Positions 2,122 through 18,021 of a stretch of DNA of 64,000 nucleotides are shown here, in pieces (the stretch's first letter is position 1; each line of letters begins with the position of its first letter). The stretch is from Fragilaria crotonensis (taxonomy: Eukaryota > Bacillariophyta > Fragilariophyceae > Fragilariales > Fragilariaceae), in assembly GCA_022925895.1 (NCBI GenBank), contig JAKSYS010000259.1:1-64000 (forward strand), in the 5' to 3' direction. The notes under the pieces are model-generated. The model was not told the DNA's origin. It was given only the letters and a program-made list of their open reading frames with translations, and did no database searches. A program made the translations under genes and the position numbers.

Positions 2122-5100
2122 TTAAATCCATAACTGCGGGTACCATTCATTGTATTGAAAAATGTCAAAAGGGTCGACAGCTGAGCATGCCTCTTCAGAT
2201 TTCATTGTGTTGAAGAATTCAGGGTCTTCAGAATTGAATGGGCGAAAGGAAGGATGATTCCTTTGCAGAATCTCCATATCTTCCTTCGGCTCGGGTCGTA
2301 CCAGAAAGAAAACACGGGCGTCTGTTCGATTGGAATCTCTGTGAATATCCTCCTCACTGTTTTCGCTTTTGACACAGATAACATAGTACACACCGTCGTA
2401 TCGATACACGACATGCTTGCCCTTAGGTGGAAAGAACTGACCGTTCACTCCGTTAGAGGACCGGAAGACTCGAACCGGTTTCTTGTGGACAAAGCTGCTG
2501 AACAAGGCTTGTGGCCGCTGGAGTCGACCGACGTAGTAGGTAACGTATCGGTACTCGTCCACTTCGCCATGTTCATTAGAAATGTTGCTAATTACAATGG
2601 ACGGACTTCCAGCACCCTTGCTCCCAGCTACACCTCCACGGTCATTAGCATGAGCTCCGCAGGCGAAGAGATGCGCTCTTGAGTAGCAATTGCCTTCGAT
2701 TAGCTCACCCGCCATCGGACCAAACTTGTACGTTATGATGCGGTTTGGAGCTTCGATACTCTCCACCTGATAGCCAGTGTCCACCGAGACAGGTCTCTGT
2801 TTGCCATTTCGAAAGATAATCGCCATGCGTCGCTTGTCAGCCACATCGTGCTTCTCCTTCAAGACAGCGTGCACGTACCCTACCTGGCTACGGCCATCCA
2901 TTTGATAACAATCTCCAGCAATCGGGAAAAACTCAAGTTGCTCATCGCCGTCCTGTAGTTCCACAAGTTGCGATGGTTGAAAGCAGATCGTCCTCGGATC
3001 CTCGGGCGACTCAACCGTAAGGGAGAGTACAGTATCTTCCTCCTGCGTATCATCAGCGTGCCAATTGATGTTGTCCTTTCCGTCCCGGTAGATGAGGAGA
3101 TCAACACCGATATTCCACGCCTCACCTGGCAGACGGCAGTGATCAGCAAGGCGCGCAGCCAGGCCTGATATCTCCTCCAATTCTTCCAACGGGTGACTCT
3201 TCATCTGAATACTCCCGTACTTGTATCCATGTGCATTATTCGGAGAAGACGAGAACAATGCGTGAAGCCTAGGCTCGGCCCCACATTCTCTCACCTTGTA
3301 TTGGCGGTACTCATTTCTCGAAACCATTTCAAGCTTGATGGGATCGATGTTGGGGACCAGCTGTGGCCAAAAGACCAACCTTCCACCTCGACGCAGCTCA
3401 AACACTTGCTCATTCAAACCTTCGTCGCAATCAAAATATTCCCACGCACCATACTTCATTTCTTCGGCCACCCACTTGCGACTGCGTGCAAAGACTCGCT
3501 TCCCCTGCGGAACTGAGAAACCTTCGGTAGCATGCGCTCGACAACACGACAGGCCAGCATTCGAGTATCTTATAACTTTCTTTGCAGGCGTCGTCGCTGT
3601 CGATGCATTCGCAACTTGAGAAAGGTTCTCGTCAGGCTTCATTTGCACCATCTCGTTTGTCGTGCACGTCAATGCGTCCCAATTCTCCACCGCTGGGGTC
3701 AAGTGGCTGTCTTCCAATGGAGGTGGTGTCACAAGTCGTGTCAATTTAGGTGTCGGTCCCTTGTCAGTAGGGCGCTGATTCGAAATTCTTGCTTTGGCGA
3801 TGTTCTTCAAGAATAACGCACCAACAGTGGAGCTGTTTCCGTTCTTCAATTCAGGTGTCGGTGCCTTGTCGGCAGGGCGCTGATTCGCAATGGCGATGTT
3901 CTTCAGGGATGAAGTGCCAACAGGAGAGTTGTTTCCGTTCTTCATTGTATCGCCTTTAACCTCGCTACCAATATCAGATTCCTCGTCACCTTCGTGAAAC
4001 TTTTCAAGAATGCGTTCTTCTGGCGACTTCTTGAGCTCCTCCTCCAGGCAGGCAAATCCCTTCATTATTTCTTTCTCGGTACGAAGGAGTTTCTCGCCCG
4101 CGTTGACCTTAGCCTGAAGGCCGGCCTCAGGTACGTGCGCCTTGATCGACACTGCTTTCTCGTATGACATGAGTTCCCAGCGTTTTTTATGTATGTACGC
4201 TTCACTGACTGGAGACCCGTACACGTAGCACAAATAAAGCATTCGTTTCGGACTTCCTTTGGACTACAGACAGTGGCGAAGTCAGATAACCGCACCGGTG
4301 CATATAATCAAGGAAAACATTCAAGTTACTCACGGTCTCAAACATCCGCATCCAAATACTTCTAAGGCGACGAGGAGCTTGCAACGGGCTTAAAACGAGA
4401 ACGGGGCGCAACTGATTTGTTTTCACACGGCTTAGCATTATTTGCCCCCATAATTTCTTGTGAGATTCTGGTACACGCTCCAAAATCTGCGCGACGCACT
4501 TCACCTGGATATAACCATTTTCCGACTTAGTCGCATTACATGGATAGCGATTCTTCTTCGACGCCTTTGCTGTCTGCGACGAACTCGTGCAATCACGCGC
4601 CTTGGTGAGAGGATTACACGCTGGGTGTGACAGTCTACTCTTGTTGAAAAACAGTTCAGGTGCCGGTTCAAACTTGCGAAAATCACATATCTCCGCGAAA
4701 GGATCTGTGTCGTGTTCCTTGCATGGCCGACCAGGGATTCTCTCGGCTTCAAGAGTCTTGTCAAGCGTCCACGGCCCTGGCATTTGTGTGGGTTCTTTGA
4801 TCTCGACAGTTGGAACCATGCATTTGGATGACAATGTAGCCTTCCTTTCGGGATGTTCAATGGCCGTGGCACCTCGACGGACCTTCGCCTTCCCTTTTCT
4901 CACAACCTCTGATAATCTTGAATTGGAGCATTTGGCGCCCTTACGGCCAGATGAAGAAAGCCTTTCGGTGACACCTCCTAGATGTTTCCGGCCCATGTCC
5001 AGACATCTAGACACGCTCATCCAATCTGCGACTTTCGTCTTCAGATGTATCTTGCTACCTTGTCGCTTCTCTCCACATCCCTCCACTTCGGCCATCGCGC

Positions 5101-6385
5101 AGCCCGATCCAATCTTCACCTTTACCTCCGGGGCTTTCTTCTGGCTCTCAATACTCATGTTGTACACCGAATCCGGATTATTCAACCTTGCGCTCCACCC
5201 TTCTGAATCTAATTTGTTCGTCCCTGTCCTCGAAAGTTCCTCACCCGTCGTGTTGTTCTCAGTGAACAATGCCTTCTTCGCAGCCTTTACCGATTTATCT
5301 TGTTCGTATTCCATACTGGACTGTGCAGTGGGCTCCTCAATGACATACTTGGGTCTCTTTCTAGGTCTCACATCGTTGGTCTTGGCAGTCGCCAACTTAT
5401 CTGTCGCTCTGCGACATCGCTTAATGCGGGTTTCATGTGAGCTGCCGTCTGTTACCCGATTCCCGAGGCGAGCCTTGGCCACCGTTCTTTTCTCCTTCGT
5501 AATCGCAATCTTTTTCTGTGCGCTAACAAGCGACTGGCGTCCGCTTTCCACTTCATGGCTTCCATCCTCGAGAGGATAGTCGATTTTATCTGGAAGGTCA
5601 AGAAGGCTCTCAAAGACTTCAGCAAACTTTAGTGGGATGCGTTCGGCTGGTTTCTTTCGTAGATCCTCCTCCATACAAGCGTACCCCTTCATCGCTTGTT
5701 TTTCCACAGACTTGAGTTTCTTGCCCGCATCGAACTTGGCTTGAAGGGTGGCAAGGGCTACATGCGCCATTGTCGATGCCCCTATCTCATACGGCAACAG
5801 AGTGCTTGGTTTCTGTTGCGTAAGTGCTTTGCTGTTCGGAGACCCGTACCAGTAACACCAGTGCCACATCTGACGGGGGTCGCCTTTAGTCTATAGGAAT
5901 CAGTGAGGCAACCACGGCTGCGAGAAAACAGGAGGAAGAAAAATCAAGCAAACTTACTTTTTGAACATGTTCATCCAAACGTCCCTCAGGTCAGGATGTA
6001 CTTGATATGGGCCCAACACAAGGACGGGGCGCCATGGATCCTTGTCCCATTTGCAAAGCATGATCTGACCCCACAGTTTCTGGTGTGAAGCAGGTGCTCG
6101 CTGAAATATCTGCCGTCTCTGCAACACGAACTCTTGTCGAAATTCGTTAGCCCATTGCTGTCGCTCGATCGATGAAGTTTCAAGAACGAAGGTTTTCTCC
6201 GTCGATTCCTTTCTCGGCATTGATGACCTTGAATGACAGCGCTTCTTGATGCGTTGAGAACCATCAGTATCCTTCGTGATGCCATGTTCTCCAGTACTCG
6301 CCGTCGTACCTTTCGAGCCTCTACGAGGCACTGTCTCCGACGGCAAAGAGCAGTCTCCACTAATGTCCGGCAATTGATGACTCAT
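2122..6385 (-). CDS. PWWP-PWWP-AlkB-SRA protein, putative chromatin-guided oxidative demethylase
   Basis: Three exons inferred: 6385-5958, 5890-4334 and 4263-2122. PWWP 1 spans exons 1/2 (KLWGQIMLCKWDKDPWRPVL ... CYWYGSPNSKAL ... LLPYE); PWWP 2 spans exons 2/3 (KLWGQIMLSRVK ... CYVYGSPVSEAY ... LMSYE). PWWP domains bind methylated histone tails and DNA. Exon 3 then carries an AlkB-type 2OG-Fe(II) dioxygenase: YRDGKDNINWHADD (iron ligands His and Asp of HAD, about residues 395-397 counted from the MLYLCY methionine), distal His about 458 (YVHAVLKEKH) and the RRMAIIFRNG arginines that hold 2-oxoglutarate. It is closest in look to ALKBH2/3. The C-terminus (about 506-652) is SRA-like: FACGAHANDRGGVAG, SIVISN, KPVRVFRSSN, YRYDGVYYV. 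Intron 2 (4264-4333, GTGAGT...GTAG) keeps phase 0. Intron 1 (5891-5957) has canonical ends but its donor is one base out of phase, so exon 1 linkage is slightly uncertain. The substrate is unknown; about 1374 residues. Confidence 0.78.
4264..4333 (-). other. Intron 2 of the PWWP-AlkB-SRA gene, inside PWWP 2
   Basis: GTGAGT donor and CTGTAG acceptor, 70 bases, phase 0. Removing it joins WMRMFET to SKGSPKRMLYLCYVYGSP and completes a PWWP fold. It sits at the same place in the domain as intron 1 does in PWWP 1. Confidence 0.75.
5891..5957 (-). other. Probable intron 1 of the PWWP-AlkB-SRA gene, inside PWWP 1
   Basis: GTAAGT donor after WMNMFK and CTATAG acceptor before TKGDPRQMWHWCYWYGSP, 67 bases. 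The acceptor is phase 0 but the donor as written is phase 2. One extra G before GTAAGT would fix the phase, in line with single-base losses seen in other genes here. Confidence 0.6.
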
Positions 6386-7087: not shown

Positions 7088-10000
7088 TTATTCAACAACG
7101 CACTGGACTCCGCGGCACCATTTCCCGAATGCTGCCCAGTGCTTGTCTCCTTCCTCGAGGCAATCTAAATCCCCCACAACAATCAAACCATTCTTTGCTC
7201 TTGTCAGAGCGACATTCATTCGTCTCCAGTCCCTTAGGAAGCCGATGCTACCGCTTCGATTCGAACGAACAGTTGAGAAAAGAATGATATCCCGTTCCCT
7301 GCCTTGATAGCCGTCGACCGATTTCACTTCGACCGGCGCCTCCAAGTTGGCTGCCAGCTTCTCGTATTCCTTGTCTTTACTCAACAGTTCTTTAATCAGC
7401 TCCACTTGACCAGTATAAGGACTGACAACCCCAACCGACGCGCCCTTGTTGTTCTTCAAAACATCTTTCAAGACTTCCACAATCCTCGCGGCTTCCGCTT
7501 CATTGCTATAGGACGTGGTCGCATCAGCGAGATACAACGCCATGGGCCCACCACCGCGTTTCGACAGCTTGCTACTCGGAGAACCTAGTCTCTCATGACA
7601 ACGACCGCCCACGTGAACGAACCGCACATTTGGAATATCATCTGAACGGCCGACGGTATTGTCCGACAATGGCCCAATGCTGCTAGTCAAGGTTGGGAAT
7701 TTGCGAACGTGTCTCATGTACGACGGAGTCGATAGCTGCGAATTGTAAAAGACTGCTGACGAAAACGCAGCAATAGAAGGATGCATACGGTACTGCACGG
7801 ACAGCAACAGAGAACCAGCAAACTGCTTGCGGTAGGCAACCTTGGGTTGGCTGGCGTCCAACACACGAAGTAGTGACAATGCCTGCTTGGTGGATTTTGA
7901 TTCCAAAAAGGTTGTGTCCTTCTCACTCTGGTCGTTTTGAGCCGTCACAATGACGGGTGCTGGCATTGTCGCAGCCAGTCGTTCCATCAGGGAAAGACCT
8001 AATGGTGATTCGGGCGAACTCTTCACGGTTGGCGGCAATTGGCACGGGTCCCCAAGAAGTACCAGCGCTCTGCAGCTATTCGAAGAAATCAGAGGAATAA
8101 GTGTAGCCGGTTCCACGCTCTGGCATGCTTCATCCACCAACACAAACGGTAATGACAGGGGTGGCAGACCATCCGGTGCAGAGCTCTGCCTTCCGAAAAC
8201 GACGCATCCCCTCCTTTTCCATTCATTTTGGTTTTCTTGGACGAGTCTTTCCAATAGTCGCCCTCATCTGCCGCATCGTCCTCCGACAGAATTCCACATG
8301 CTGCCAAGAGTCGAGGATCAGCTGCGCCCGTGGAAGTGGTAACAATGACATCCGCATCACGCAAAGCCTTGGTCGCTGCGATGTTGCAGGCCTTGATGGA
8401 AGCCTTGACCGCCGCGGTGGCCAGCGCTCTCTTGCTCTGATCGCTCAGGATCGAGTCCTGATTACGATTTGATTTTGTTTCACGCGATTCAATTGAGACG
8501 TCGCTGCCGTCGCCTGCTGCAAGGCACGTTGTGCCTTTGGATCGGCATCAATAGCGGCATCCAACGTGTGGTTCCAGAGTTGTTTCGACACACCAGATGC
8601 CTTTCCAATGCGGACCACCTTCAGCCCTAACTTCAATGCGGATTCGGCCAAATTATCGGCGCCCACGTTGCTAAAGGCACATGCCAAGACTTTTGTGTTA
8701 CGAGGAGCAATAGTGCGACACTGATGGACGAAACCAAACGCTATTGCAGCTGCAACTGTTGTCTGTGAAAGGAGGCAATATTGATGAGCAAGAGAGAAGG
8801 AGTGCAGTCTAGAACTGACGATTTGATCTGAATAACGTTGGCACGTACTTTACCAGTTCCTGGTGGACCCTGAACCATGGTCAGTCGACGTGTCAATGCA
8901 GCGCCTATAGCCGTTAGCTGAGGACCATTGAAGGCGGGGAATATACCGTGGGGATTCGTCTGCATATACGACAATACTTGATTAGCCAGCGTGGCAGAAT
9001 TCGGCAGTGGCGATCTTGCCAGACTCTTCGCGACCTCTCGCAAGTCACAGGCCTCCGTATCACGGAAAAAAATGGATGAGGGGTCGTGGAGCATGAATGT
9101 GGAGATGATGGTTTCACGAAAGATTTCGTCCATGCATATGTTTGCATATTGCTTGGTGGTTTCGGAGTTTTCTGCTCCTTGTTGTCCTTGCTGAATGCCC
9201 TCTGCTTCTGGGCGTTTTCTGTTCTCTGGTATGGTGGTCATTTGGCTGAGCGCTGATACCATGCGTTGATAGGGAACATTTGACAAGAAGCGATCCACCC
9301 GCAAGCGCAGACGACGATTGCCATTGCCCGATCCATCGTTGGGTGCCGGACCAAATGCGGCTTCAAAGGCTCCACCAGACATGGCAATGTCTACATAGGT
9401 GGGTCCTGTATTGAGAATACGTGCTTCCGCCGCAATCGCATTTGTCGACGTCGGCAGTCTGTCGGCACCAAAGATATCGCCTGAACCGTTAGGTTGGTAT
9501 GTCAGCATAATGACATCGTTTGTTGAAAATTTATGATTTGGTGGGAGAGTTGAATCGGAGTTTTCGGAAAGGAAATTGGTGCAAGCATCGTTCGCTTTTG
9601 AAAGTCGATACACTTCGTCGGAAAACAAATTCCCACGCCGTTCGGCATACATATCAAAAAGGGCATATCCAGCGGCTTCAAGAGCTAGAGGATCATCGAG
9701 AGATGCTTTGAGTCGACCCAGGACTTCTTCTTCCTACGAGCATTAATCAGGGAAGGTCCAGGTAGCAATGGCGCAAGAAAAAGGTGCGAGAAATTGGAGA
9801 TGTGGGTCAGAAAAAACTTAAAATGTCGACAAGATTCGACCGTAGAGAATAAGCAGTAGGCGAGTAGATCCAAGCGAATCTTCACATTTTCGTTCCAATG
9901 ACAAGCGACAAATGCAATGTAATAGGAATTGACAATTGTACTTACTTCAGCCTTGTATTCTGCCGTCAGCAGTTGTAAAAAATGAGAATGATACGACGAT

Positions 10001-11244: not shown

Positions 11245-14200
11245 TCAAAACGATTTCCGCACAACTGGAAGCCCATAGCAAACCGGAGCCAATCCAACAA
11301 TATGCTGCATCTTGCAACACGACCTTGCCTCTGCAACGCACTTGGCCAGGGAATCTCCTTCGTGGCTTAAAAACTTGTCCATGAACTCCAAGCAGTATCG
11401 GTCAATATCTCGATCGGTCACATCCCAAAGATTCCCGACGACACAAGGCGCACCTGACATTAGGTACGACAGCGCTATCCCTTCCGGTTCGTAATAAATG
11501 TCAACTCGCTTTGACGCGTCCGCGGATTTTCGATTGATCGAAGCAAGTTTGCCAGAACTGCAACCCATTAAGATAATGCTGGAACGACACGGCATCCGAC
11601 TCTCGCTACCCTCCATCAGAGACTCAACTCTACTCCTCGAAAAAGACCCTTTGCCGCCCCCATGACCGCAAAATAAGAACAGACCGCGTTCCTGCGTAAT
11701 GCTGTCAAGCACAAAATCTTCCGTGGGAAATTCACCAATAACTCCCGACCAATTCCAGCCGTTCTGTCTGTTGGCGAATTCAATCAACGGCATCATCCTC
11801 TCGGCCGTCTTTCCCAAGTTACATTCAGGATCTATGACGTAGCGAGCGTTACTGGCGTCTACCTCGGTGGGTACTGATGTTAATAGAGAAGCGAGGAGGA
11901 ACGCAAAGGATGGAACGCGGGTGACTGCCTTTCCCTGTAGAAATGATAGACCTTCGAAAGGAAATCGATGAAGATTTTCGTCAAGCACAAGGATGGTACA
12001 CTCGATATCGTTCGCAGTCAATTCAAACTCATTCGAAGCAAGGTCTCTCAAATTTTCCTGCCCTTGTTCAACGAGGAGCTGGATAAGGTCTGCTTTCCTG
12101 TGCTTGCTCGAAAATTGAACACCCTTGCTTTGTAATCTTTCCTTCAGTTGCGCCACCGTCAAATTGTGCAGGATCTCACCGCCTCTAGATTGCGGCGGCG
12201 ATTCGAACACCGCGTCAAACATCGAGGCCAAATTTCCACGTAGTGGGGAATCTCCCGAGTCGCTTCGTTCAATGGTTTGTAGTGGCACCCCGAATACCTG
12301 CCTGACGCTTTCACCATGAAAATAAATCTTGTCAGTGCGATCGACTAGTTGTCGAAGCCTGCTGTCGAACTCTTTCCTCTTGCTCCACCAACACCTCTTC
12401 GCTGACTCCTCACCGAACTCGTCATTAGCTGTGCTCTCATCCATCCCGTTCAACTGGTTGTCACTCTGTTGGATCAATACATCGATCGGCATCATCACTT
12501 GGTCGTAAATCGACGAGTCAAAAAGATTCCTTGGCGATACCTCTGGAAACACACAGGTACACTGCCGTTTGCCATCGTGCTGTCCAGCTATGAGCAGCTC
12601 TCCCGTTGGACATAAAGCAATAGCAACAACATTCCACGCGGTTGGCAGACAATCCTTAGCTAGAGCGAATAAGTCGAACCATTCGCTTTCAACGAGCTGC
12701 TGCACACGGGTATCTTCGCATTGTCTTCCACCTAAAGTGGTACTGAGAAACTTAGCCTTGGACGTTATTCCGATCGACGCGTGTATGAGGGCATCGGCCG
12801 CCAATCCGAGTTCCGTCGCCTTTGCTCTGGGTCCCAAAACTAAAGCAAGCGATCTGCACAATTCTCGTTTTAACGGGAGAGAATGAGCGTCAACAAGCAA
12901 GAGACCCGACTCAAAGGCTGCTCTCGCATCCTTGAGGCATTCATCGATAAGTTCATTATCTTCTTCCCACAAACGCCTGATCACTTCCTTTTCTCGAGCG
13001 GCGCCCACGTGGACGAGACCGAGAAAGTAGTACGCTAATGATTGGAGACGAGTTGAAACGGCTGACATACCGATGAGCTCATAGCAAATCGTTTTCACGG
13101 CGTCCATGCTATCAACACTGCATCCGTCGAGGCTAAGCAGGGACCTCGCTTGACAGAGCTTCACACGGGCGATTGCATTTCCGAATACGTTTGTATCCAT
13201 TGATAGCTCATCAAGGACTTCGAACGACGATACGAAATCATGTGAGACAGTCATGTCCAATGCGGCAATCGAAAGCAACAAATTGTCGACTCCCTCGGAA
13301 GGAAGAAAGCTGGGTGTGAGAATTGGCGTCAATGTCCGGAGTCGCTCCAGTTGAACTTCAAGATCATCGACAACTGCAAATTCGACTGGTGCGCCAGACC
13401 ACGCCACTCGTGACCATAAGTCAGTTTTCAGTTCCTCCCAAGGGTGAAATTGTGCCTTAAGCGAAACAAGAGAACGGAAGCAAACAGCTTGCTGTACTGA
13501 TGATATCGATCCGCTAGATTCTCCGAGCGAACGCAGATCGACTCGCGAAGTACCCAATCCCTGTAAACTTGCTTGTTCAGATGCAGCCAGCAAGTATGCT
13601 TCGGCTTTTCTATAGTCTCCAAAGACATCGTATGCTTGCGCAAGATTTAGCAAGCATTCAAGCTGTCGGTCCATGAAAAGGTTGTCCATTGAGGATAAAG
13701 AAAGTGGTAACGTATTGTCATCAAAAGGCCCCCTTTTGGATAGCTTGGCGCCAGTTTGACAAATTTTCATGCAATTCCTCAAGGCCTCTACGGCATCGCG
13801 CCCTTGGTGCAAGCGTATGTATATCTCAGCTAGGGCTAGCAATCGAGAACCTTCAACCCATCGACGAATCACTTGGAGGGCGTCGGCCCCTCGATCCTCC
13901 ATTCCCATGATATCATGGATACTCCGCAACTCTGAAATGCAGACGTGCAACCTGCCTGGTACTTTGGTTGCTCCTTGTAGACGTAATGCCGAAATCTGGG
14001 CTTCAAAGCGGCATAAGGCCCCCCATTCACTAGTGGATTGTTGTCGTAAATCCATCGTCCCACTCAAAACATGAGCCAATGAATCAAAATCCGCACGTTT
14101 TAAAGAAGCTATAGCACCCGCCGTGAACCAACAATTCGAGAAATCGTCCACACCCATTTTTCGAGATAAGAGAGCATTCCAGTACGCTACCTTGTTGGCC

Positions 14201-17200
14201 TTTACAAAATCACCGCTCAAGGTAAATTGAGATCGCACCTTTGATAGCAACGCTTGCACGCATCCCCATACTTTTGATTGAAGCTTGTCGTCTGCTCTCA
14301 CTTCGAATCCCAACAATTTACGTACGACCTGTTTGCACGCTTCAATCAATGTGGTATTATTGTATGCGCCCACTAGGCAAATCTGACGATGGACCATGTC
14401 AAGCCATAACAAGGATGCCGTTTGATTCCCTTGGTCCCGGGCGCGAACTTCTTCCAGGGCTTTTGCTGCCCTCGAAAGTTGATTCCAGTATAGCGATCGC
14501 ACCTCGTCCTTTGGGTCGTTTTGGTTTGGTGTCAGTGATGAGGCAGCGACAAAATGTGAGAGACCAAGCATGTAGGTCGCGTTATCGGTCGTCGATTGCA
14601 TGCGTTTCAACAATCTATAGAGAAGGCGCAACGAAGACTTGAATACGTAGTGAAGCATGGTAGTTGAGCGTTCCTCACTCGGCTGTCGTTTGATTGTATC
14701 TCCAAGGGATACGAGGAGGATCCCAGCTGTTCTTGCCTGTTGTCCTCTCACCGAGTCGCAACATCTTGGATGACATCGCCGCAGGATATCAACAAATGCA
14801 CTGGCCAAGAGCTTTTCCAGGTCTGGGGTAAAGCCTATTCCTTCTCCAATTGAAGCATTCTTGATACCTTCAGATATGGCTACCAAGGTAGGGGCCGCAT
14901 CGGTTGCTTCAATTGGCATGTCGCGATGCAAGAGCGGTATGAGACGGTGAATTAAGGAGGCGGTAGTATTTCGAGTCACTGGTGTTCCAGCAGACAGATC
15001 CAACAAGAACGATGAGGTTGCATCCAAAGAGTCTGGACTTTCCACCGCCTCGGTTGTGGAGTCATAGGCAAGAGCACAAACAATAGCCAAAAGCGCCGCG
15101 TCGTTCATGCCAAGCGATACGAGGCATGACGCAAGGTAGGAGTACCGTGACATGAGTTGTCTTGAACGAGCAAACTCTGGATCACAGCTCGATGACTCCA
15201 ATCTTGTCAGGAAATGCAGAGAATAAACAAGAGGAATAGTTCCAGGGATGTTCGAGTCGTGTCGGCGCTTTCCGATAGAAAAGAGTAGCCTTGCCAGACG
15301 TTCGACGGACCCAATGCTTGGTTTCGTCAAATCAACCGTCATATGGATTTCAAGAATAAGCTTATTAATCATCGGCGGCAATGATAAATCTGAGGTGATA
15401 GAATCCAGAGCGTCATAGAGAGAAATAACGCGAGAGTAAACATCGATCATGTCATCCCAATAGTCAAGGCGACGCGTGGCATCCAACTCAGTCGCAATCA
15501 ACAAGCGGAGCACGGTCACGACCGCTGTCGACAGAATGGTTCCACACACCTTCCACGCGGAAACTTGTATGGAAGATAATTGGGCGGCATCGGCATCTTC
15601 GAGCGCCTTGCGTTGTCGAGAACACCTATGCGGTAGCATGGTCTGTTGCAGTAGTTTGTAACACCGACGCAAATTTTCAGGCGTTTGTTGCGCTGCTACG
15701 ACTGACTGAAAGTCGGCTAGGGCCGAGTGGTGCACTTGTTCCAGATGATGGAGGGAATCGTAATGCCCGTACGATTCCAACGAAACTGCACCTAATGTTT
15801 CCGATCCGAGCTCTCTTTCAAGACTTGCTACCACGAAAATGAGCCCAAGCGTGACTTCTCCAAGGTTTGGGAGCGAATTCGAAGCGCCACCATCAGAACA
15901 TACATGACCGAACTTGTAAGGATACTTTCCAAAGAATCTACACGAGCATGAAGATTTTTCCCTTTGTATGCCCATATGAAGTGATCGATAGGAGCAGTAT
16001 TCAAGATAGGACATGCAGCGAGGTCGGGCAATGCGGGCCAAGGCTTTGCCAATAACGTCGTGGAATCGGTACAAGGGATTTTGGGTTCCTTCCACAGGAA
16101 TGAGAAGCTTGGTTTGTTGAACATACGAAGCGGCAGCTTTCCAAGCGTACGAGGAAGCGAGCTCAGAGCATGCTGTCGAGATCAACATGCGGACGTCGCT
16201 TCCAAGTGTATCGTCGTCACACAAAATCAGAGCCAAAATGGCATCGCGCCGCAGTTCGAGGGCGGTGTCGTGGTTTGTTTGCGAAGCTGCGACATCCCAT
16301 AACAATCGATGCGCAGCTTTGGTAAATGAAATCAATTCCTTGTGTGACTTTGGGGTTGCAGCATATGTTCGAGTCCAACGGACAATGACAAGTAGTACAA
16401 TCTGCTTGACAATATCCACAGTCGTTTTCAGCAGCATGACGCTTGCAACGCCAGGGCCAAACTCAGAGGTAGAAAAGGGTTTCTTATGACGTAACAGTAC
16501 ATTGCATACTGCCAATGTGGATTGAATGCCGATTTTGAGCGGCTGCTGCACATCCGCTCTCGTGGTGTTGGAGGTTGGAACTGGAAATTCAAATAGTGCA
16601 GCGCTCGCTTCAAATGTGCAGAGGCTCGAGTCTTTTAGGAAATTGCCTAGAATCTCGTAAAGTGCCACTCCAATTGATAGTGCCATTGACCGTGTCCCGT
16701 CGTTGCTTTTGCTAATGGCGGTGTTTTCTGCATTTTGAAGGCGATCCGAGAGCGTGACAATCGCATGGTAGACCAGCTTTATGGGTGTCAGAGGGCTGCC
16801 AAAAAGTATTGTAGTCAATGCTCGCAAGGCATGAGTCGCGACTGTGAGCTCTTGCACTAGCGTCTCGCCGAAGACCTTCTGTTCGGTGGCTGCCTTGACA
16901 CTTTGACGGCAAGCATTCAGCAGGGCCTCTTCGGATTCTATAAGCTGAAGGGGTGCAGCGCGTTTGGAAAGGGTACGCGAGCACTCCAGGATAGCGTCCA
17001 TATAACTAGACGATTGTTTTTTCCAGAAAGAAGCTGCTGCACACGATCTAGCTGCGCGGCCAAAGGCACAATGGTCGTCGATTGTGCATTTCTCAAGATC
17101 AAGCTCCGGTGGCATCGTGTCCACGGTGCGTTTGTTCTTCGCCCCCTTGTTGCTTACATTCTCCTTATCAAACGCCGAAACCTCTGACGCAGTCACTGCA

Positions 17201-17262
17201 GCGGGTAATCGCTTCCGTCGACGTCGCGTCGTTATTCCTGAAGCAGAGGAAGATGATGACAT
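11245..17262 (-). CDS. ESP1: Separase (peptidase C50) with a SAP motif
   Basis: Separase is the cysteine protease that cuts the cohesin kleisin at anaphase so sister chromatids can part. This single exon encodes 2005 residues, within the usual range of 1600-2200, starting at ATG 17262 (MSSSSSASGITTRRRRKR). The C-terminal protease is clear: LVLDENLHRFPFEGLSFL, RVPSFAFLLASL, FLFCGHGGGKG with the catalytic His about 1867, LMGCSSGKL with the catalytic Cys about 1901, then GIALSYLMSGAPCVVGNLWDVTDRDID. The long N-terminal part is helical repeat-like, as in other separases. Odd: a SAP motif at about 1701-1732 (LTVAQLKERLQSKGV followed by KHRKADLIQLL) lies just before the protease. I know of no such motif in animal, plant or yeast separase. 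No introns or frame breaks over 6 kb. Confidence 0.95.
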   Translation of the reverse strand: MSSSSSASGITTRRRRKRLPAAVTASEVSAFDKENVSNKGAKNKRTVDTMPPELDLEKCTIDDHCAFGRAARSCAAASFWKKQSSSYMDAILECSRTLSKRAAPLQLIESEEALLNACRQSVKAATEQKVFGETLVQELTVATHALRALTTILFGSPLTPIKLVYHAIVTLSDRLQNAENTAISKSNDGTRSMALSIGVALYEILGNFLKDSSLCTFEASAALFEFPVPTSNTTRADVQQPLKIGIQSTLAVCNVLLRHKKPFSTSEFGPGVASVMLLKTTVDIVKQIVLLVIVRWTRTYAATPKSHKELISFTKAAHRLLWDVAASQTNHDTALELRRDAILALILCDDDTLGSDVRMLISTACSELASSYAWKAAASYVQQTKLLIPVEGTQNPLYRFHDVIGKALARIARPRCMSYLEYCSYRSLHMGIQREKSSCSCRFFGKYPYKFGHVCSDGGASNSLPNLGEVTLGLIFVVASLERELGSETLGAVSLESYGHYDSLHHLEQVHHSALADFQSVVAAQQTPENLRRCYKLLQQTMLPHRCSRQRKALEDADAAQLSSIQVSAWKVCGTILSTAVVTVLRLLIATELDATRRLDYWDDMIDVYSRVISLYDALDSITSDLSLPPMINKLILEIHMTVDLTKPSIGSVERLARLLFSIGKRRHDSNIPGTIPLVYSLHFLTRLESSSCDPEFARSRQLMSRYSYLASCLVSLGMNDAALLAIVCALAYDSTTEAVESPDSLDATSSFLLDLSAGTPVTRNTTASLIHRLIPLLHRDMPIEATDAAPTLVAISEGIKNASIGEGIGFTPDLEKLLASAFVDILRRCHPRCCDSVRGQQARTAGILLVSLGDTIKRQPSEERSTTMLHYVFKSSLRLLYRLLKRMQSTTDNATYMLGLSHFVAASSLTPNQNDPKDEVRSLYWNQLSRAAKALEEVRARDQGNQTASLLWLDMVHRQICLVGAYNNTTLIEACKQVVRKLLGFEVRADDKLQSKVWGCVQALLSKVRSQFTLSGDFVKANKVAYWNALLSRKMGVDDFSNCWFTAGAIASLKRADFDSLAHVLSGTMDLRQQSTSEWGALCRFEAQISALRLQGATKVPGRLHVCISELRSIHDIMGMEDRGADALQVIRRWVEGSRLLALAEIYIRLHQGRDAVEALRNCMKICQTGAKLSKRGPFDDNTLPLSLSSMDNLFMDRQLECLLNLAQAYDVFGDYRKAEAYLLAASEQASLQGLGTSRVDLRSLGESSGSISSVQQAVCFRSLVSLKAQFHPWEELKTDLWSRVAWSGAPVEFAVVDDLEVQLERLRTLTPILTPSFLPSEGVDNLLLSIAALDMTVSHDFVSSFEVLDELSMDTNVFGNAIARVKLCQARSLLSLDGCSVDSMDAVKTICYELIGMSAVSTRLQSLAYYFLGLVHVGAAREKEVIRRLWEEDNELIDECLKDARAAFESGLLLVDAHSLPLKRELCRSLALVLGPRAKATELGLAADALIHASIGITSKAKFLSTTLGGRQCEDTRVQQLVESEWFDLFALAKDCLPTAWNVVAIALCPTGELLIAGQHDGKRQCTCVFPEVSPRNLFDSSIYDQVMMPIDVLIQQSDNQLNGMDESTANDEFGEESAKRCWWSKRKEFDSRLRQLVDRTDKIYFHGESVRQVFGVPLQTIERSDSGDSPLRGNLASMFDAVFESPPQSRGGEILHNLTVAQLKERLQSKGVQFSSKHRKADLIQLLVEQGQENLRDLASNEFELTANDIECTILVLDENLHRFPFEGLSFLQGKAVTRVPSFAFLLASLLTSVPTEVDASNARYVIDPECNLGKTAERMMPLIEFANRQNGWNWSGVIGEFPTEDFVLDSITQERGLFLFCGHGGGKGSFSRSRVESLMEGSESRMPCRSSIILMGCSSGKLASINRKSADASKRVDIYYEPEGIALSYLMSGAPCVVGNLWDVTDRDIDRYCLEFMDKFLSHEGDSLAKCVAEARSCCKMQHIVGLAPVCYGLPVVRKSF

Positions 17263-18021
17263 GTTACATGCATGAACAGCGCACGCAATACAATATATGA
17301 AGTAACGAGTGGATTATCGAATCACTCAAATCAAGTAGAGTCCCAGAATCGCAGAGCCAAACAGCACAAGTGAGTAATGACAAGAGGCGACCAAAGACCG
17401 AAGATCAAAGTGAGAGAGCTATGCCTTATTTGGTGTACTCGGCGTAGTAATTCTACCGGTACTTGTAGTACCTGGTGCAAGTACTGTGCAAGCTTTTGAT
17501 TGTGTTGATGTGTTTGATGTTTGATGTGTTTCGATTGGATAATGCGCCGTTGCTTCAGGATTTGCTTTCTATTCTACGGTTTGAATTTTATATCGTGTAC
17601 GGCCTGTATAAATTTTATAGACACGTCATCATACGACATCGCAAGCACCAGCCGCGCTTCGTGATTTTACATTTTACATTTCACTCTTTACACAGATACA
17701 TCTGGAATCTGGAGAGGACTACCGATAACACTACAGTTGCACACAATCCACACAACGCCGCGGCCTTTATCCCAGTCATCGGGTTCAACATTGTGAATTC
17801 CGATGGAACTGACGAGGCTCCATCGCAGGATCCCAGGTGGACGGCAATGTTGGACTCTTCAGTACTCGAGTAGAGATGGATGTGAGTCACCAAAAAAGTG
17901 AATACAACTGACCTACCCCGTACCCAGCTCTGTACAATCAGAAAACTATCCATGTCACTCTACTCTCTACTAGAACAAGACACAATTTGCAGCAAGTGGA
18001 CCTACTGCCGGTACTCACAAT
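17263..18021. other. Intergenic spacer upstream of separase
   Basis: About 760 bases with the presumed separase promoter. Includes a TGTTTGATGT repeat near 17500-17530 and some GTACC words. No gene recognised. Confidence 0.5.

Follow-up and report, generated by a model that had tools for sequence, protein, structure and literature searches.

Animal TET proteins join a CXXC module to a dioxygenase, a reader-plus-dioxygenase layout. Among AlkB-type enzymes, members of the ALKBH3 family have 1-methyladenine (1mA) and 3-methylcytosine (3mC) as their main substrates, and in the SRA protein UHRF1 the base-flipping pocket is built from two stacking tyrosines, an aspartate, a threonine and a finger loop. 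In fungi, DNA transposons of several unrelated lineages, including Harbinger, carry TET/JBP 5-methylcytosine (5mC) dioxygenases, and this cargo has been proposed to let the elements escape silencing by methylation (Kojima 2025, PMC12730594); in the text of that paper the terms AlkB, SRA and diatom each have 0 occurrences. The route by which cytosine methylation is removed in diatoms is an open question: a review left undecided whether one locus had lost its methylation actively or passively during nitrate starvation (PMC3145265), and demethylation of 33 genes has been reported in P. tricornutum under nitrogen limitation (PMC9861306). Here we describe a three-exon gene on the minus strand (6385..2122) of a 64,000-nt stretch of the diatom Fragilaria crotonensis (contig JAKSYS010000259.1, positions 1 to 64,000; hereafter the window), whose last exon encodes an AlkB-type 2-oxoglutarate/Fe(II) (2OG/Fe(II)) dioxygenase domain followed by an SRA domain. 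The AlkB-SRA enzyme core is supported as a predicted member of a conserved family. Tentatively, and with somewhat less than even confidence, we read the gene product as a chromatin-targeted AlkB-type dioxygenase that would oxidise modified cytosine, most likely 5mC, and whose mobile cousins resemble the fungal TET/JBP transposon genes.

The first-pass annotation of the window, made by a model from the letters and open frames, had placed AlkB and SRA in one continuous exon, and this is what we find. Exon 3 (2122..4263, minus strand, stop codon included) forms a frame from 4263 to 2122 that is open over 713 codons and holds the second half of PWWP-like copy 2, a linker, AlkB, SRA and a C-terminal tail. 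With the 492-residue AlkB-SRA part as the query, PF13532 (2OG-FeII_Oxy_2) matches fragment residues 97-264 (2809..3312, minus strand) with an E-value of 3.2e-9 and 37.7 bits, above its curated cut-off of 31.2, and PF02182 (SAD/YDG) matches residues 294-417 (2350..2721, minus strand) with 2.4e-11 and 44.0 bits (curated cut-off 30.7). The annotation had allowed that a profile search might show the C-terminal domain to be something else; by this match it is SRA. The AlkB match depends on the shorter query, as hmmscan of the full 713-residue query lists only SRA at E up to 1. The Pfam scans of exon 3 returned PF02182 and PF13532 only, with no match to the TET/JBP profile PF12851. Both domains are matched at similar strength in the relatives P0001 and P0003. 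The catalytic spacing to which the annotation had pointed, H-x-D...H...R...R, is complete in the window protein, which retains H181, D183, H244, R258 and R264 (fragment numbering).

The core belongs to a wider family that the annotation had missed, as it had the transposon-linked paralogues described below. Searches for relatives yielded 41 proteins in all (33 and 9, with one shared), 22 of which carry both PF13532 and PF02182 in precomputed assignments; the others carry one or none, and many are fragments. An alignment (A1), on which the residue counts are based, was built from 24 of the 41 proteins together with the window protein and a paralogue at locus C413 of the same genome, shorter or partial sequences being left out. 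When these 26 members were scanned at E up to 0.01, PF02182 was found in every one and PF13532 in 24. The family includes the diatom Cylindrotheca closterium, the bolidophyte Triparma strigata, Triparma laevis and the pelagophyte Chrysophaeum taylorii, as well as a CCRYP-prefixed protein that we take to be from Cyclotella cryptica; in Triparma the AlkB match lies below the cut-off (19.4 bits in P0039) or is missing from the precomputed column. One member, P0018, is named as an MMETSP transcript, which indicates that at least this member of the family is transcribed. PHD-like fingers (PF13771) accompany the core in 3 of the 26 members and an SGF29 Tudor domain in one, suggesting that chromatin readers have been joined to it more than once.

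The residues expected of an active dioxygenase are almost invariant across the alignment: H181, H244, R258 and R264 are kept in 26/26 members and D183 in 25/26. Directly following the Fe-ligand Asp is a second aspartate, whose counterpart in ALKBH2/3 makes contact with the lesion base; it is likewise kept in 25/26, and the HxDD sequence is followed by Thr in 23/26. In a profile search of the PDB, the nearest solved structure to the AlkB part is ALKBH3 (2.5e-6), and ALKBH2 is not among the matches up to E 1. A corresponding search with the SRA part recovered TagI (9e-16), UHRF2 and UHRF1 (4e-8) and SUVH6 (4e-5), and in its predicted pocket one clamp tyrosine is kept in 25/26 members and the acidic Asp in 24/26. 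Identity to the window over the AlkB-SRA part is 97% in P0001, 88% in P0002 and 73% in P0003, each of which carries AlkB and SRA in one protein; a chance read-through of two neighbouring domains is thereby ruled out. Between the window and P0003, 151/195 positions are identical in AlkB and 125/151 in SRA, as compared to 41/115 aligned positions of the linker (155 in all). The far better preservation of the two domains than of the linker indicates that selection acts on the enzyme.

In a tree of 29 rows, to which P0039 and P0040 were added for this purpose only, the window protein and P0001-P0003 form one clade (99/98). Its sister clade comprises 14 rows, made up of P0004-P0015 and two copies from the same genome, C413 and C732 (99/97), and the two clades are joined at 100/99; the deeper part of the tree has long branches, and the branching order there is uncertain. 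A bacterial or viral origin of the fusion was also considered and set aside, on a weak test, in a contig scan that covered at least 592 stretches and gave at least 116 relatives, 80 of the 116 being kept: none of the 80 has a frame with both domains. Of the 80, 2 had an SRA-like frame by the loose motif check used there, which overlooked at least one SRA frame that was seen by eye (L105); L128 is AlkB alone by frame, though its matched range spans AlkB into SRA. Viral contigs queried with P0003 gave no relative; queried with A1, they gave 2 SRA-type loci, both with HNH-like tails by eye. With respect to novelty, the annotation knew of no described enzyme with the full set of domains. An AlkB-SRA fusion was not met in our limited search of titles and abstract openings, with most subscription papers outside its reach, and the AlkB-SRA pair itself is found repeatedly, in a bolidophyte and a pelagophyte as well as in diatoms. 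Such a fusion may be mentioned in the domain surveys of Iyer and Aravind, and we do not claim priority.

Upstream of the core, the gene contains two copies of one intron-split domain. Exon 1 (5958..6385, minus strand; recognised by its open frame, its donor and the homologous exon of a paralogue at C108) comprises the 5' coding part and the first half of PWWP-like copy 1, ending in DVWMNMFK. After a 67-nt intron (5891..5957), exon 2 (4334..5890; supported by the relatives P0034 and P0035) provides the second half of copy 1, a long linker and the first half of copy 2, and the 70-nt intron 2 (4264..4333, GTGAGT..CTGTAG) leads in frame into exon 3, which completes copy 2. In both copies the intron falls at the same position within the domain. 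They match the spliced C108 gene at 93/150 and 87/150 residues and each other at 76/150, and C108 has its intron at the equivalent position. These resemblances indicate that the 5' part most likely arose through duplication of a C108-type gene. The linker of exon 3 holds a tandem repeat of about 35 residues (3741..3944, minus strand), in which 3741-3848 and 3846-3944 are 78.7% identical. Opposite exon 2 there is an antisense open frame of 343 residues on the plus strand (4548-5579), which is probably mechanical.

The annotation had described two PWWP halves completed by short introns, and had proposed profile searches for PWWP, the dioxygenase and SRA. The duplicated split domain and its introns stand, as do the PF13532 and SRA matches, but the PWWP label is weak: naming the domain so is reasonable by eye and weak by profile. 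The PWWP profile PF00855 reaches only the C108 paralogue, with an E-value of 0.73 in 24,736 models and 10.8 bits (cut-off 25.6), which by our arithmetic corresponds to p of about 3e-5 if PWWP is treated as the single hypothesis tested. Neither window copy is listed up to E 10, in a search that by its filters discards most matches with E above 0.1. When the three copies were combined into a profile, 8 PDB matches up to E 10 were obtained, with no PWWP structure among them, and an hhalign comparison with two accepted PWWPs of the genome gave a probability of 1.3, which says little as the profiles contained only 3 and 2 sequences. PWWP matches above the cut-off occur 3 times elsewhere in this genome, so the Pfam model works here, which counts somewhat against the label. 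A role of the N-terminal modules as chromatin readers is plausible and putative, resting on this weak PWWP match.

The three-exon structure proposed by the annotation is sound at its second junction and broken at its first, a defect that had been missed. In this assembly, the canonical splice from donor GTAAGT at 5957 to acceptor CTATAG before 5890 shifts the reading frame by one base, so that translation stops after 178 residues, whereas the corresponding junction of C108 is in frame. Among 18 donors and 8 acceptors examined, 24 pairs would restore the frame; the 2 of these with GTAAGT as donor lose the conserved YWYGS strand, and the pairs that retain YWYGS use weaker donors. The three-exon protein cannot be read directly from the assembly, and a two-PWWP protein would require one extra base near an A-run, whose absence may be a sequencing error, an allele or real damage. 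Relative to C108, the ratio of nonsynonymous to synonymous substitution (dN/dS) is 0.18 (NG86) or 0.33 (YN00) for the exon 1 part and 0.32 (NG86) or 0.64 (YN00) for the exon 2 part. Values below 1 suggest that the exon 1/exon 2 frame was under selection for most of its history, as it seems to have been. Relatives of exon 2 were found in P0034 (61%) and P0035 (57%). Just like the window sequence, P0035 runs on at its tail across intron 2 and enters exon 3 in a different frame, so at least one other assembly shares the predicted exon 2-exon 3 layout. As predicted, the first residue of P0002 and P0003 corresponds to residue 32 of exon 3, which lies beyond the YGSP strand in the tail of PWWP-like copy 2; P0001 starts later still. 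No single relative among those found carries the PWWP-like copies, AlkB and SRA together; relatives of exon 1 were sought in this genome only.

In addition to the window gene and to an SRA gene located on C207, AlkB-SRA or SRA relatives occur in the same genome at C413, C732, C578, C410, C656, C603, C71 and C65. Five of these eight loci lie tail-to-tail with another gene, the two stop codons being 26 to 103 bp apart. C413 and C578 are paired with a DEAD/RecQ-like helicase, and C603, C71 and C732 with a DDE_Tnp_4 transposase. C656 and C65 are cut by a contig end on the partner side, and C410 shows no partner among frames of 120 residues or more. Several copies are broken or truncated, and C413 holds the only open AlkB-SRA frame among them. 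DDE_Tnp_4 is common in the genome (333 candidates, 150 scored), and by our arithmetic the chance of finding it within 110 bp of a random gene is about 1 in 2000, as compared to 3 of 8 observed; clustering of repeats raises the true odds, but not to 3 in 8.

The copy at C603 is part of a complete 4.6-kb PIF/Harbinger element (L034, 3429-8028), bounded by terminal inverted repeat (TIR) arms that are 97% complementary and by a TTA target duplication on both sides. Its transposase (DDE_Tnp_4, PF13359, 2e-22) occupies a frame of 504 codons, tail-to-tail with an SRA frame of 545 codons that lacks AlkB. Allowing up to 3 mismatches, the TIR occurs 35 times in the genome as compared to 0 for the reversed pattern, and 13 of the 14 inward-facing pairs counted are spaced 0.9-1.7 kb apart. 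C71 retains AlkB and SRA pieces, a transposase and one TIR end, a remnant from which we conclude that an AlkB-SRA-bearing form of the C603-type element probably once existed. At C656 (L037, 739-2658), a second element gene lies upstream of AlkB-SRA in the same orientation; its start is zinc-finger-like (Znf_SCAND3, 0.0015 and below the cut-off, in the C603 copy), and this order suggests that C603 lost its AlkB through deletion.

The helicase-linked copies were considered as a proven transposon and rejected as such, as no convincing terminal repeats were found in the 9-10 kb around C413 and C578. The RecQ/DEAD-like helicase family gave at least 58 matches (191 candidates, 37 scored), many of them clustered, and it may perhaps be akin to the telomere-linked helicases of fungi. 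Copies of this helicase were noted at L031 and L033 and in clusters on C592, C588, C490, C389 and C269, with an N-terminus that is cysteine-rich by eye. For the window gene, the C603 TIR pattern had no match on contig C180, other TIRs not having been searched for, and no transposase was present among the five neighbouring frames scanned.

A putative TET-parallel function built from an AlkB domain is our best reading of the window gene. The protein would be nuclear and chromatin-targeted, with the PWWP-like copies docking it on chromatin and the SRA domain binding DNA at a modified cytosine through base flipping, and the AlkB domain would then oxidise the methyl group of that cytosine, most likely 5mC, leading to the removal or editing of DNA methylation; in the mobile sister copies, the same activity would serve as an anti-silencing device. 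Nuclear location, chromatin docking, the 5mC substrate and the anti-silencing role are the parts of this scheme that we infer. In favour of it stand the intact catalytic residues, the selection seen on the enzyme core, the chromatin readers joined to that core in other members and the link of the paralogues to mobile elements. The genome also has matches to the DNA cytosine methyltransferase profile PF00145, 13 in all and spread over 9 contigs, some of these matches being pieces of a single gene. Bian is said to have reported in 2019 that AlkB, ALKBH2 and ALKBH3 oxidise 5mC in vitro. Several observations count against such a function. The AlkB part is ALKBH3-like, and ALKBH2/3-type enzymes act mainly on N-alkyl lesions. 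In the SRA part, the first stacking tyrosine of UHRF1 is not conserved (alignment judged by eye), and the loop matching the UHRF1 finger appears shorter by eye, its length being compared through TagI. In the one complete element observed, SRA is present and AlkB absent, the AlkB-bearing copy being a remnant, and the weak PWWP label and the out-of-frame first junction also tell against the scheme. A broader proposal is more doubtful, though possible: that AlkB-SRA, not TET, is the active 5mC dioxygenase of diatoms and their kin, that transposons carry the gene against silencing, and that at least one lineage fixed a host version fused to duplicated chromatin-reader exons.

The main rival, which we consider unlikely but serious, is a repair enzyme whose SRA domain would guide the ALKBH2/3-like part to methylated DNA, there to repair 3mC formed as a by-product of DNA methyltransferases. 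ALKBH2 has been linked to DNMTs, although no paper on that link was evident by title among the matches listed. The proximity of the AlkB part to ALKBH3 in the PDB search and the retention in 25/26 members of the Asp that contacts the lesion base in ALKBH2/3 both agree with repair, as does the demethylation of 1mA and 3mC by ALKBH2 (PMC11836389). A repair function would be of little benefit to a transposon, yet the sister copies are transposon-linked, and this link, as proposed for the fungal TET/JBP elements, favours control of methylation over repair; fusions to readers of chromatin marks are also more usual in regulatory enzymes. It is improbable, in our judgement, that the window gene is instead a decaying or partly working copy, in which the frameshift cuts off exon 1 and the product is PWWP-like copy 2 with AlkB-SRA, or AlkB-SRA alone. 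Such decay would fit the out-of-frame canonical splice and the adjacent helicase at 7088-9733, which also spreads over several frames, but exon 3 is open over its full length, the dN/dS values of the exon 1 and exon 2 parts are below 1, relatives of exon 2 and exon 3 are present in other assemblies, and a one-base error near the A-run is equally possible. Least probable of all is a demethylase of N6-methyladenine in DNA (6mA) or of RNA, with SRA serving for placement only. In its favour, the stramenopile Nannochloropsis is reported to have an AlkB protein that demethylates 6mA (PMC10943562), and orchid Ty3/Gypsy elements carry an AlkB RNA demethylase (PMC9289625). Against it, the Nannochloropsis enzyme is described as an ALKBH1 homologue, whereas the window AlkB is nearest to ALKBH3 among solved structures, and the reader fused to it is of the 5mC type.

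Other features surround the gene. A superfamily 1 (SF1) helicase (AAA_11/AAA_12) lies at 7088-9733 on the minus strand over several frames; by eye, one of its breaks is likely an ordinary intron and the others look like indels. Beyond it, a one-exon separase of 2022 residues (11245-17313, minus strand) matches Peptidase_C50 at 6.8e-54 and contains an HeH/LEM-type motif (PF12949, 1.5e-8) within the C50 match. On the other side, the intergenic interval 1680-2050 shows by eye many GTAC and GTACTGTAGTAC-like repeats, and the neighbouring gene at 217-1485 is Yip1-like by eye, with no Pfam match.

If the reading as a cytosine dioxygenase is right, the gene may belong to a hitherto undescribed system that erases or otherwise manages DNA methylation, and the AlkB-SRA dioxygenase offers a concrete and testable demethylation candidate in the species that have it. 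Compared with known systems, the layout of reader plus dioxygenase resembles that of animal TET, whereas the dioxygenase comes from a different family; a Tet_JBP search of the genome gave 0 matches, but it had no positive control and we do not claim absence. The AlkB part shares HxDD...H...R...R with ALKBH2 and ALKBH3, the latter being its closest solved AlkB structure, but these enzymes lack SRA and chromatin modules and have Glu after HxDD, where Thr predominates here. The SRA part is shared with UHRF1/UHRF2, SUVH and TagI, but the AlkB-SRA members have no Pfam match to RING, SET or HNH, and TagI has about 13 more residues after the pocket tyrosine than the AlkB-SRA family profile. In orchid Ty3/Gypsy elements, as probably once in the C603-type element described here, an AlkB domain is carried by a transposable element, but there it is an RNA N6-methyladenosine (m6A) demethylase in a long terminal repeat element, and the abstract names no SRA (PMC9289625). 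The fungal TET/JBP elements are alike in linking a 2OG/Fe(II) dioxygenase to DNA transposons, Harbinger among them; the present system differs in that its enzyme is of the AlkB family, fused to SRA and found in ochrophytes, with the window gene itself not found inside an element. If transposons do carry AlkB-SRA, they would constitute an independent counterpart, based on a different enzyme family, to the TET-bearing transposons of fungi. Acquiring demethylating enzymes would then seem to be a tactic that DNA transposons use generally.

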